From: Agrypnia vestita
Lineage: Eukaryota; Arthropoda; Insecta; Trichoptera; Phryganeidae
Assembly: GCA_016648135.1 (NCBI GenBank)
Contig: JADDOH010002332.1
Location: forward strand, 186,001 to 250,000
Reading direction: 5' to 3'
DNA length: 64,000 nt
Made by a program: the position numbers and the translations under genes. A model generated the notes under the pieces. That model ran no database searches, was not told the origin of the DNA, and saw only the letters and a list, made by a program, of their open reading frames with translations. Of the stretch, positions 44,345 to 60,368 are shown one piece after another. Position 1 is the stretch's first letter; the number at the start of each line of letters is the position of its first letter.

Positions 44345-45629
44345 TTAGGTCCTTACATATGAAATTCACGTTTTGCCGTACTGGCAAATTTGATCTCAAA
44401 TATCTTCTCTTTGGTTAGGAATTCCAAATCCAAATTTATACAGCTATTTACTCATGTATTTGTGTTTTGAAAATTATAATTCATTTGTTTTTTCCTCAAT
44501 TGTTTTTTTCTTTGCGTCACTCAGTTTACAAAATGAAAAACTTGAAATATCGCGTTATTTACGAGTACGAGTTCCACCGTAGCACCAGGCTGCAGAAACG
44601 GCTCGAAGGATTAATGATGTGTATGGCGACGGTGCCGCAAAAGAAAACACAGTGCGTTTTTGGTTCCAACGTTTTCGTTCTGGAAATTTCGACCTGCAGA
44701 ACAAGCCCCGTGGACGGCCGGAGACCAAAGTTGATAATGAAGAATTGAAGGCTATTGTGGAAGCGGATCCATCGCAAACCACATCCGAGTTAGCTGCAGG
44801 CTGCGGTGTTAGTGATAAAACTGTTTTAATCCACTTGAAGCAAATTGGTAAGGTGAAAAAGCTTGAAAGGTGGGTACCTCACGAATTGAGTGAAGCAAAT
44901 CAATAAACGCGCGTTGACTGCTGCGTTGCATTACTCAACCGGCACAATAATGAAGGGATTTTAAATCGAATCATTACCTGTGATGAAAAGTGGATCCTGT
45001 ACGATAATCGGAAGCGCTCATCGCAATGGCTGGACCCTGCCGAACCAGCCAAACCATGCCCCAAGCGAAAATTGACTCCAAAAAAGTTACTTGTGAGCGT
45101 TTGGTGGACTAGTGCTGGTGTCGTTCACTACAGCTTTCTTAAATCTGGCCAGACGATTACGGCAGATGTCTATTGTCAGCAACTGCAAACCATGATGGAA
45201 AAGCTAGCTGCTAAACAACCGAGGCTGGTTAATCGCTCTAGGCCACTGCTGCTTCATGATAACGCTAGACCACACACTGCACAACAGACGGCTACCAAAT
45301 TAGAGGAGCTTCAATTGGAATGTCTAAGACATCCACCGTACTCTCCGGACCTTGCCCCAATAGATTACAATTTTTTTCGAAATTTGGATAACTTCTTGCA
45401 AAGGAAAAAATTCAACTCCGATGGGGCAGTCCAAACCGCCTTCAAAGATTTTATCGATTCCCGTCCGAATGGTTTTTTAAGTAAAGGGATCGATGAACTA
45501 CCTATGAGATGGCAAAAGTGCATAGATAGCAATGGTACATACTTTGATTAAATAAATATATTATAATGAAAAAAAATCGGCTTTATGTTCCTCCCATACT
45601 AAACGTCAATTTCATATGTAGGGACCTAA
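44345..45629 (+). mobile_element. mariner-family DNA transposon, nearly full length
   Basis: A 1,285-bp element flanked by TA dinucleotides (44343-44344 and 45630-45631). The terminal inverted repeats begin TTAGGTCCTTACATATGAAA on the left and TTAGGTCCCTACATATGAAA on the right, about 28 bp with few mismatches. It holds a single transposase gene (separate entry). Length, TA target and TIRs are typical of mariner. Confidence 0.95.
44533..45551 (+). pseudogene. mariner transposase, two inactivating lesions
   Basis: The reading frame opens at ATG 44533 (MKNLKYRVIYEYEF), is thrown out of frame by an apparent 1-bp loss near 44587-44590, and continues in the next frame as MYGDGAAKENTVRFWFQRF through a GRP motif, a helix-turn-helix and the conserved WVPHEL. 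A TAA at 44904-44906, probably a C-to-T change from CAA, interrupts it; the frame then stays open to 45551. The catalytic triad is complete: D at 44982 (CDEKW), D at 45258 (HDNARPH) and D at 45363 (PIDYNFF), with 34 residues between the last two, the mariner D,D34D spacing. About 339 codons in all. With only these lesions it is a young but dead copy. Confidence 0.92.
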
Positions 45630-47396: not shown

Positions 47397-48357
47397 ATTG
47401 GCAGTTATGAGAATAGTACGCTAGAATAGTTTACTGCTATACGAAGACTTCCAAAGCGAACCAGATGTCCAGAATAAGGTTCGAAACGCCCGTACACAAC
47501 AGAGACAATGCAAAAACTTACTTTGAATCCTCTGGCTTGCCAGAAAACTCGGCACTCCTCTGTAATGCACTGTATGATTTTTGCTGTCTCCACCCTGATA
47601 ATAATTCACTCTCACGAATGAATACGAGATACTGGCGCGTAATTCAATAAAAAAAAATTCGGTTTGAACAGGAGCGAAGGTAGATCAGATCAGATAGATG
47701 ACAGGTGTTTATTTTTTTATTATTGCAAGCAGCAGTGACGGTCAAATTAACTAAAGTTCGGCATTGGTCGGTCGGCGCATCGGAGATAATTGATACAAGG
47801 TAGAGAATTTGCCTATCTTTCTCATGAACAGGCGTTCGACACATATTACAAAAATATATAGATACTGGCGCGAAATGACAGCAATATCAAAAAAAAATTT
47901 CATTGCAGTAACCGAGGATCAAAATCAAATTTAAAATGCACTGAATTCTACATTTTATGCATTGTCACGTGTCAGGCAAATGAAAATACTGAAAATTAAT
48001 TAGCGATTTTTTAATTAGTGATTATTTTATTATTAAATGGACAAATTTAACATGAACTAACCTTAAAGCTATTCCTTAAATCATACTATTTCGCAATTTA
48101 TCACTCGTGTATGACCACTTTATTATCGCAGGGTAATACTTTATTAATCACTTGCAAGAATATTCCATTTAAACGCCAATTCCATACATAATTGCACATT
48201 GACATCATTTTTCGGATATAAGAAATATTAAATTAATATGGGTGTTTGAAGTGAAGACAGATAATTTTTCTTCCCACAACTCTAACTAACAGCAGATATA
48301 TATAATTATAGTACATTTTATCAGCAATTGACGTGAAAATAATTTAATTTTGATAAT
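47397..48357. other. No gene seen
   Basis: AT-rich sequence between the hAT MITE and the Helitron. The short frames around 47,405-47,650 are on both strands and have no domain. Confidence 0.5.
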
Positions 48358-48634
48358 TAATATATATATATATATATATATAAAAAGAAACCCGTGTTTC
48401 CCTATCCGCCAAGTTTTCTCCACAACCAGCCACAACCACCCATCGGTGGTTATGATGGTGGATAGCCCTTGGTGTCACATAGAAAATATGCGAGTTTGGT
48501 GGGGGTGGCTGTGCGTGGGTGGGAGTGGGTGACGAAAATGTGCTTTCTAGCACATTGTTTTGTTATGGGAAGGTCGCAAATGCTTCAAATAGTTTCAAAA
48601 TAGGCGCGTCGACTGTGTCGGTAAGTCTAAAAGG

Positions 48635-48708
48635 TTCCGGAAAAACTTGTTCTAGAAAGTTCTGGAAGGAGAAGGTTCTAGAAAATTCCCGAAAGTTCTA
48701 TAAGATTC
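48635..48708. promoter_or_regulatory. Heat-shock element array 1 (HSF sites) in the Helitron
   Basis: Alternating TTC and GAA triplets spaced exactly two bases apart, the HSF trimer code. They start at 48650, 48655, 48660 and 48665, then after a one-base shift at 48671, 48676, 48681, 48686, 48691 and 48696. Extra partial sites are TTCcgGAA at 48635-48642 and TTC at 48706. Three inverted pentamers suffice for one HSF trimer, so ten make a very strong site. Binding is inferred from sequence only. Confidence 0.75.
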
Positions 48709-48746
48709 TAAACTGAGTGGCGGAATGTGTTGGTGTGTCTAGGAGG

Positions 48747-48815
48747 TTCCTGTACATTCGATAAATTTCTTGAAAGTTCTGGAAGTAGAATGTTCTAGAA
48801 GGTTCAAGAAAGTTC
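48747..48815. promoter_or_regulatory. Heat-shock element array 2 (HSF sites) in the Helitron
   Basis: TTC/GAA triplets start at 48767, 48772, 48777 and 48782, then after one extra base at 48788, 48793, 48798, 48803, 48808 and 48813, so the 4+6 layout of array 1 is repeated exactly. The sequence between the pentamers differs more from array 1 than the pentamers do, although the arrays descend from a duplication. Confidence 0.75.
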
Positions 48816-49369
48816 AATGATTATCCAAACGGTGTACTAAAAAACTACGCGCGAAGCTGCGCGGGCACAGCTAGTTTGTGCTATAATTTTATTTTTCATG
48901 TATCGGTTATGTATAATATGCCAATGTAAAACTGTGATGAGGAAAATGAGAATAAAACTGGGCGCGTACATAATTAGTGGCATTCTTTGTGTTAGATCTA
49001 CCAGTGCTTAGCTGGAGAGAGCAGCCGCAACTTAACACCTGTGACCCAATGACTCAAGAAAATAACTCATGAACACGGACTTCAGAAAACATTTTTTTTA
49101 AATATTAATTAGAGACATACATGATACTCCTAATAAGACTAAGCCCATTATCCCAATTACAAGTGTCTTTGGCACGCTTCAGCAACATGTATTTTTACAT
49201 TTATGTATATTTTACATGTACGTTTTTGTGTTTTATATATTTAGTGTTTGAATATAGTGTGATCATATAAGAATATGTAAAGAAAAATTCATTTAATGGA
49301 TCTATAGATTCAGGTCATCGTTTAGGAAATGGGTGTTGTGTATGAGTGAATTTTTGAATGATGATAAGG

Positions 49370-59294: not shown

Positions 59295-60368
59295 ATGGAC
59301 CACGAGACGCTGAACCTGACACATTGGAACGTCAGTGAGACGAACGTCACGAATCTCCCCACGTCAACTCTCGAAGCGGAAGGTCTGGAACCGCTGTTCA
59401 ACTTTATTATACTCGGAGTCCTTATGGACATCACCGGCGTTTTGGGGATCGTGACGAACATCATTTCCATGGTCATCTTCTCGCAACCGCAGATGAAGAC
59501 CAGCAGCGGAGTTCTACTGTTCGGCCTGGCGTTCAGCGACTGCGTGCTGGACGTCGGAGCCATCACCTACGTCGGACTGCCGACCATCTACCTCTACACC
59601 GGCTACACTTTCCGGTTCTTCCACTTCATCCTCCCTCATCTGGAGCCCTACATCCACATCATGACGCAAAGCGCTTACACGTCCACGCTGTATCTGACCG
59701 TGGCTGTCACCGTGGAGCGATTCATCGCGGTCTACCATCCGCTAAAGGTCAAGGTGGTCTGCACGCGCAGGAGATCCATCGTGGCTGTCTTCGGTATAAT
59801 GATCTCCTCCTTTCTGTTCATGTTGCCAAAATTTTGGGAGGTTCATCTGTCGGAGATAACCGTCGTCGAGAACAACGTGAGTTCGGTCGTTTACAGGACG
59901 GACATGGGAATATATTCGGAGATTTACGGCTGGCTGGACACGATAGTCGCCGTGCTGCCGCTGATAACCTGCTTGATCCTGAACATCCTCATATTCAAGG
60001 AGTTCAGGAAGATTAAAGTGGAAAGGGTGAATCTCACGTTTGCCCAGGCTGACGAAATCCAAAAGACCAAGATAATAGTCTTCATCGTCCAGGCGTTTCT
60101 GCTGTGCAATGTCCTCGAGATTCTGTACAACTTGTGTACTTTCGAAAATTCTTGGGTGCTTCCCACCTTGAATTGGTTCTGCATCGTGTTGAACAACGTC
60201 GTGAATTTTGTAATCTGTGTAACGTTTTGGAAAATGTTTCGCATTACGTTTTTGGTATTGTTCGGAATGAAAACTGACAACAAAAGGCCGTCTGCCAGCA
60301 AGAGCAAGACGACGCTTTCTTCAAAAAGTAGCACGTCTTCTTCGAAAGTTCAGTCATCCGTAGTTTAA
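59295..60368 (+). CDS. Class A (rhodopsin-like) GPCR, FMRFamide-receptor-like, intronless
   Basis: A 357-residue seven-transmembrane receptor in one uninterrupted exon. The start is the ATG in an ideal Kozak context (ACCATGG); an in-frame TGA lies at 59235-59237. The N-terminus has three N-glycosylation sequons (N7-L-T, N12-V-S, N17-V-T) and no signal peptide, as is usual for class A. TM1 spans about 34-62 with N55 in the 1.50 position; TM2 about 72-95 with LAFSD (D82); TM3 ends in ERF at 141-143 in place of DRY, followed by IAVYHPLKVK, a signature close to insect FMRFamide receptors. TM4 ends in MLPKFWEV; TM5 about 214-234; TM6 about 258-280; TM7 about 293-312 with VNFVIC in place of NPxxY. 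The tail is serine and lysine rich (331-355), suiting phosphorylation. The usual TM3/ECL2 disulfide cysteines are absent. By family it should sit in the plasma membrane and signal through G proteins for a neuropeptide; ligand and coupling are unknown. A divergent paralogue or orphan receptor is likely. Confidence 0.9.
   Translation: MDHETLNLTHWNVSETNVTNLPTSTLEAEGLEPLFNFIILGVLMDITGVLGIVTNIISMVIFSQPQMKTSSGVLLFGLAFSDCVLDVGAITYVGLPTIYLYTGYTFRFFHFILPHLEPYIHIMTQSAYTSTLYLTVAVTVERFIAVYHPLKVKVVCTRRRSIVAVFGIMISSFLFMLPKFWEVHLSEITVVENNVSSVVYRTDMGIYSEIYGWLDTIVAVLPLITCLILNILIFKEFRKIKVERVNLTFAQADEIQKTKIIVFIVQAFLLCNVLEILYNLCTFENSWVLPTLNWFCIVLNNVVNFVICVTFWKMFRITFLVLFGMKTDNKRPSASKSKTTLSSKSSTSSSKVQSSVV

Follow-up and report, generated by a model that had tools for sequence, protein, structure and literature searches.

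A high-copy non-autonomous Helitron of the caddisfly Agrypnia vestita with a duplicated array of candidate heat-shock elements

In the literature that we searched, Caenorhabditis alone offers a detailed example of Helitrons that spread binding sites for the heat-shock factor (HSF) (PMC6927752). There, Garrigues et al. 2019 (PMC6927752) found clusters of heat-shock elements (HSEs) carried by Helitrons to be bound by HSF-1 and to respond to heat, C. elegans being the species in which binding and heat induction were shown. As far as the sections of that report considered here tell, enrichment of HSEs in Helitrons, or dense HSE clusters, occurred among the genomes scanned in Caenorhabditis only and in no other animal. 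Section 9 of the same report prints the scanned motif as NGAANNTCCNNGGAN, which may be a misprint; if this motif was really used instead of the GAA/TTC alternation, the absence outside Caenorhabditis needs rechecking. Our literature searches, which covered titles, the starts of abstracts and the top entries of some lists, returned no insect Helitron with HSEs, and the passages seen of four further papers (PMC5844308, PMC9226531, PMC13104882 and PMC8896005) dealt with other matters or with Caenorhabditis.

Here we describe a Helitron family of A. vestita that was noticed in a window of 64 kb, the whole stretch of DNA that was analysed. In our view the family is best read as an insect instance, independent of the nematode one, of HSE clusters borne by Helitrons, for which a function is plausible. 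The features of the window copy, all on the forward strand, are as follows.

about 48357..48874, + strand: non-autonomous Helitron of about 518 bp, with ends TC..CTAG, a hairpin and insertion between A and T
48614..48698, + strand: unit 1 of a direct repeat, comprising array 1 and an in-register upstream part (outer limits set by eye)
48650..48698, + strand: array 1, whose first TTC is CTC in most family copies; triplets at 48650, 655, 660, 665 / 671, 676, 681, 686, 691, 696
48726..48815, + strand: unit 2 of the direct repeat, comprising array 2 and an in-register upstream part (outer limits set by eye)
48767..48815, + strand: array 2, with its ten triplets in the order of array 1 and 10/10 intact in the family majority; triplets at 48767, 772, 777, 782 / 788, 793, 798, 803, 808, 813
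48848..48863, + strand: 3'-terminal hairpin CGCGC-GAAGCT-GCGCG (by eye), 7 nt before CTAG

Each of the two 49-bp arrays consists of TTC and GAA triplets that alternate at exact 5-bp steps. Their order in the window copy is TTC GAA TTC GAA / GAA TTC GAA TTC GAA TTC, where the slash stands for one 6-bp step, so that the triplet positions read from the sequence bear out an earlier note on this DNA, which had described two arrays of four pentamers, a one-base shift and six pentamers. The start given in that note, 48635, includes an additional in-register TTCcgGAA 5' of array 1. The number ten refers to triplets that are intact in both arrays; more in-register triplets, partly degenerate and differing between the arrays, lie upstream. 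With runs of four and six pentamers, each array follows the rule for an HSE, namely at least three inverted nGAAn pentamers at 5-bp spacing.

The phase of the arrays, an exact 5-bp alternation, is beyond chance. The motif TTCnnGAAnnTTC occurs 13 times on the two strands of the window, 12 of the 13 inside the Helitron, against an expectation of 1.08, and none of 100 shuffles reached 13. In-register runs of at least three pentamers in the 64-kb window number five, with lengths of 3 (at 44678), 4, 6, 4 and 6, and the longest run in 300 order-2 Markov simulations of the window was 4, a length reached in 7 of the 300. Scans of the window for tRNAs (bacterial settings) and against Rfam returned nothing. 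The window also holds a fragment of a Mariner-type transposase (44907-45548, PF01359) and, in a single open frame at 59295-60365, a rhodopsin-type GPCR (PF00001) for which the protein search gave no more than two matches, both distant (28% identity).

Viral contigs gave no match to the eight-triplet 4+4 form of the array and none to the Helitron 3' end. Fifteen stretches of viral contigs with six pentamers are of varied sequence and were taken as chance, as were the matches in 36 phage records, the best of which had E=0.5. One viral stretch (L124) has the shifted junction. Three IMG/VR contigs (L109, L119 and L122) have in common a TTCTAGAAAGTTCTGGAAAGTTCATGAAAGTTCTGG stretch beside CTTAA repeats, and their likeness to the array is probably due to chance.

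Judged by its ends, the element is a canonical non-autonomous Helitron, which agrees with its earlier identification as such. The 5' end, an A followed by TCAATATAT.., is placed from other copies, the window copy having TT in place of TC; at the 3' end of the window copy, CTAG at 48871-48874 is followed by T, and the 3' end of the family majority is likewise predicted to fold as a hairpin (RNA parameters). A T follows CTAG in 97 of 98 matches, flank duplicates included. Among 79 5' ends, TCAA is recognisable in 44, with A preceding TC in 42 of these, while four are tandem junctions and 31 are unclear. Head-to-tail copies at two loci (L019, 1118-2306, and L038, 1362-1994) have junctions of CTAG with TATATA..AAGAAACCC, as rolling-circle replication predicts. 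At the first of these loci four additional 5'-end pieces of ~119 bp lie in series, each after a CAGC(T/C)AG junction. No open reading frame of at least 110 aa overlaps the window copy, and there is therefore no gene inside it to induce.

That the element belongs to a repeated family, as had been claimed, is confirmed by searches of the host assembly (1.32 Gb in 19,947 contigs). In the search with the full element, scoring of 40 candidates yielded, besides the window itself and one partial match, 39 near full-length matches at 92-93% identity to the window copy. Further queries with the 5' half alone, and with array 2 plus the 3' end alone, gave sets of copies that were chosen blind to the remaining part. 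First-look counts for four queries were 5279, 2246, 1241 and 2898, which are candidates and not a copy number. Removal of 20 duplicates by flank similarity, some of which may be false duplicates owing to AT-rich flanks, reduced 108 loci to 88. A full-length alignment was obtained for 82 of the 88 flank-distinct loci and a partial one for six, a ratio to be read with the fact that retrieval favours full-length copies; with the same proviso, other copies mostly keep both arrays. The family is star-like: the 82 full copies have a median identity of 96.6% to the family majority, copies lie about 3% from it, and only 2 of 819 site pairs are linked after Bonferroni correction. Among the copies retrieved, none formed a diverged subfamily that carries arrays.

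Over these 82 copies a mean of 17.3 of the 20 triplets is kept, and all 20 are present in the window copy only. The family majority has nine of ten triplets in array 1 and ten of ten in array 2. At the first triplet position of array 1, 5 of 81 copies have TTC and the majority has CTC; in array 2, between 66 and 79 of 80-81 copies keep any given triplet intact. Runs of at least four pentamers occur 217 times in 43.7 kb of family sequence versus not once in 214.5 kb of non-family DNA from the window and the flanks, where runs of three number six. Within the scope of this comparison, family DNA against window and flanks, HSE clusters are concentrated in the Helitron.

The two arrays belong to a direct repeat in which unit 2 follows unit 1 at an offset of 117 for the arrays themselves (family D2) and of 112, one pentamer step less, in the upstream part (family D1, at 48626 and 48738). 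From this repeat we conclude that the 4+6 layout common to both arrays is the outcome of one duplication in the founder and not of two independent assemblies. The pair is unstable, since 20 fetched single-array relatives (L125-L144) have lost one unit or keep no more than a remnant of it; these were 20 among the 60 matches listed, picked for their likeness to one single-array copy. In their alignment, from which columns present in fewer than three rows were omitted, the unit is lost at several breakpoints, and sometimes a remnant is left. We had considered these copies as a separate subfamily and rejected this, as the breakpoints differ among the 20 aligned copies.

The arrays had been claimed to be old duplicates in which the filler changed and the pentamers did not. 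In the window copy, indeed, array 1 and array 2 agree at all 30 triplet bases but differ at 7 of the 19 in the filler (Fisher p=0.0006). The window copy itself, however, departs from the majority at three filler bases of array 2 and in the first TTC of array 1. Between the arrays of the family majority, 5 of 19 filler bases and 1 of 30 triplet bases differ (p=0.027).

A mixed answer was obtained for the question whether the pentamers decay at the neutral rate. Over the 82 copies, change amounts to 2.4% in triplets versus 3.7% in their array-region neighbours, and in a base-matched test 110 triplet changes were observed where 141.5 were expected (about 20% lower, p=0.019), so that triplets are slightly slower. 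However, sliding the register by one base gives just as low a value (2.4%; slides of two to four bases give 3.1-3.2%), and the 29 copies selected via the 5' half only show 51 changes against 61.9 expected (p=0.08); for the remaining 53 copies the comparison with base-matched neighbours gives p=0.0496. Substitutions that recur in at least four copies amount, in raw counts, to 6 for 57 non-CpG sites of triplets, 10 for 35 sites of filler and 35 for 213 sites in the 5' half. We rejected the decay of copies as a test of selection, the effect being weak and lacking specificity for the register. Dead transposon copies of any kind are expected to decay near-neutrally after insertion. We read the triplets as doing so, which speaks neither for nor against selection on source copies, because such decay is expected for any dead copy and leaves selection on the source unrefuted.

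The host has the factor that such arrays would need. A canonical HSF DNA-binding domain is encoded on contig C288 (residues 26-105 are 75% identical to those of the fly query), with HSF residues 2-26 at 296446-296520 of the same contig, and the genome holds two weaker HSF matches at 40% identity. The assignment of the family to an insect, made in the earlier note, is in accord with one host Hsp70: among the 120 relatives listed for it, out of the 7994 best-sharing candidates that were scored, the named full-length proteins (about 620-690 residues) are those of beetles, butterflies and moths, bugs and one orthopteran, at 79-84% identity. The top of the same 120 by score consists of longer proteins from plants and other animals, at 65-76%, and some rows are nameless.

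We compared the arrays with 11 upstream regions of host hsp70 genes (L145-L155), some of which are near-identical to one another. The pentamer rule is common to the Helitron arrays and these promoters, but the HSEs of the promoters are shorter, imperfect and linked to genes. Exact runs of three pentamers occur in 2 of the 11 regions and no exact run exceeds three in any of the 11; by eye, five of them have a stretch of five pentamers near the TATA box in which one unit is imperfect, such as ATTCCAGAAAGTgCTCGAAGTTTC.

In the search for hsp70 genes we also came upon a 2.1-kb LTR retroelement, present with its structure in all three matches fetched (L156, L157 and L158; G000:C3361:73900-78400, C56:416200-420700 and C1749:7300-11800). 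By eye its LTRs are about 307 bp long (TGTAACG..GTAACA), and it shows what look like target duplications of 4 bp and a PBS-like TGGCGTCAGAAGCGGGATT. Its longest open reading frame (390-412 aa) combines a coiled-coil-like part with a part derived from Hsp70 (PF00012, with E 8.9e-34 in L158) whose Hsp70 motifs look altered, and its LTRs contain no HSE run of three. About 130 of 150 scored Hsp70 matches lie at 44-56% identity, which suggests many copies. It seems that a non-autonomous LTR element captured a fragment of a host hsp70 gene; among the titles and starts of abstracts that we searched, nothing dealt with such an element.

A second Helitron, at 2163-2910 on the minus strand of locus L017, is about 780 bp long by eye and has its 3' end at 2163. 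Its 32-bp 3' end is 97% identical to that of the array family and its (TA)n-AAAGA start is similar by eye, but the family majority matches it in these 3' 32 bp only, and in the 500 bp that precede its 3' end there is no run of three pentamers. Since this Helitron has a nearly identical 3' end and no such run near it, arrays are unnecessary for mobility by such ends. Going by this pair of elements, the arrays are a trait of the array family, and Helitrons with ends of this kind do not all have them.

One HSF trimer binds three inverted pentamers. We consider the chances about even that the family is a high-copy non-autonomous insect Helitron with a tandemly duplicated, unusually long HSE, able to bind several HSF trimers and spread by rolling-circle transposition. 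For an HSE cluster speak the phase of the arrays, the 217 runs in the family versus none outside, the triplets kept in its copies, the Helitron ends, the host HSF, the grammar of the hsp70 promoters, the greater change of filler than of triplets and the C. elegans precedent; against it speak the loss of one array-1 pentamer in the majority, the slightness of the decay gap, the equally low value for the register slid by one base, the raw counts of recurrent substitutions, the array-less Helitron at L017, the loss of units and the lack of an open reading frame.

The main rival is a neutral passenger: a minisatellite unit of ~10 bp like TTCTAGAAAG would have expanded in the founder, been duplicated once and been amplified by working Helitron ends, and its likeness to an HSE would be of no consequence. 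We tend to doubt this account without dismissing it. It would explain why the filler is alike too (14 of 19 positions identical between the majority arrays), and it agrees with the collapse of units in the single-array relatives, with the near-neutral decay of the triplets and with a related Helitron that has no arrays. It sits less well with triplets that are more alike than the filler between arrays (p=0.027) and that, in register, fit the HSF rule exactly even where the fillers differ.

A different matter is where the arrays came from, and an origin by capture, in which an HSE array was taken from a host hsp gene and then duplicated, would fit with a function or with none. Helitrons capture gene pieces, and some of the hsp70 promoters have imperfect HSEs of about five and three pentamers directly upstream of TATA (by eye). 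Yet the family majority had no match better than E=0.39 in the 11 hsp70 upstream regions outside its (TA)n start, among the matches listed from the best down, and we rejected capture from the hsp70 promoters; capture from a heat-shock promoter at large, with the comparison covering hsp70 genes, we hold to be quite improbable. Slightly less probable still, to our mind, is that the arrays serve transposition, as Rep binding sites or as hairpin-forming subterminal DNA, and resemble HSEs incidentally. They do sit just inside the 3' end, and the GAA/TTC alternation is partly self-complementary, with majority arrays folding at -11.4 and -13.8 kcal/mol (RNA parameters, no shuffle baseline). However, they are absent from the Helitron that shares this 3' end, and single-array and shortened copies exist.

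Returning to the HSE-cluster reading, one may outline how the element would act. The 4-pentamer and the 6-pentamer register of each array would offer about three HSF-trimer footprints, or six per intact element. Heat or other proteotoxic stress would activate HSF trimers, which would bind the arrays; chromatin would then open at the copies, and nearby promoters could gain heat inducibility. Source copies may have profited from this by becoming accessible to rolling-circle mobilisation under stress, as was proposed for the Caenorhabditis Helitrons, and a founder with the duplicated array would have given rise to the star-like amplification. A bolder proposal, which we think unlikely when taken whole, is that an insect Helitron evolved a portable super-HSE independently of Caenorhabditis, longer than the HSEs of the host hsp70 promoters; through HSF-driven transcription at many loci, as an HSF-titrating decoy or both, its scattered copies could together retune the response to heat shock, and they could mobilise via HSF-opened chromatin under stress.

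If the HSE-cluster reading is right, each transposition may plant a candidate heat-shock switch at a new site, and a second independent case would hint that Helitrons have repeatedly adopted capture of the heat-shock response as a strategy. The family would also provide a natural experiment in many copies, with arrays of known length and decay against which HSF occupancy and gene induction could be set.

Among known transposons, ONSEN/COPIA78 of Brassicaceae likewise carries heat-responsive elements that activate it under heat stress (PMC5059998, in the part consulted), but, unlike the insect Helitron, it is an LTR retrotransposon of plants and drives transcription of itself. Nearer are the elements Helitron1_CE, Helitron2_CE, HelitronY1_CE, HelitronY1A_CE and HelitronY4_CE of Caenorhabditis, which the sections consulted describe as Helitrons too, with many non-autonomous copies and with dense, overlapping, clustered HSEs (PMC6927752). 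The host here is an insect and not a nematode, and the family carries two arrays of a single 4+6 layout that stem from one duplication. HSF-1 binding and a heat response were measured for the nematode elements (PMC6927752), whereas the insect family is known from its sequence.
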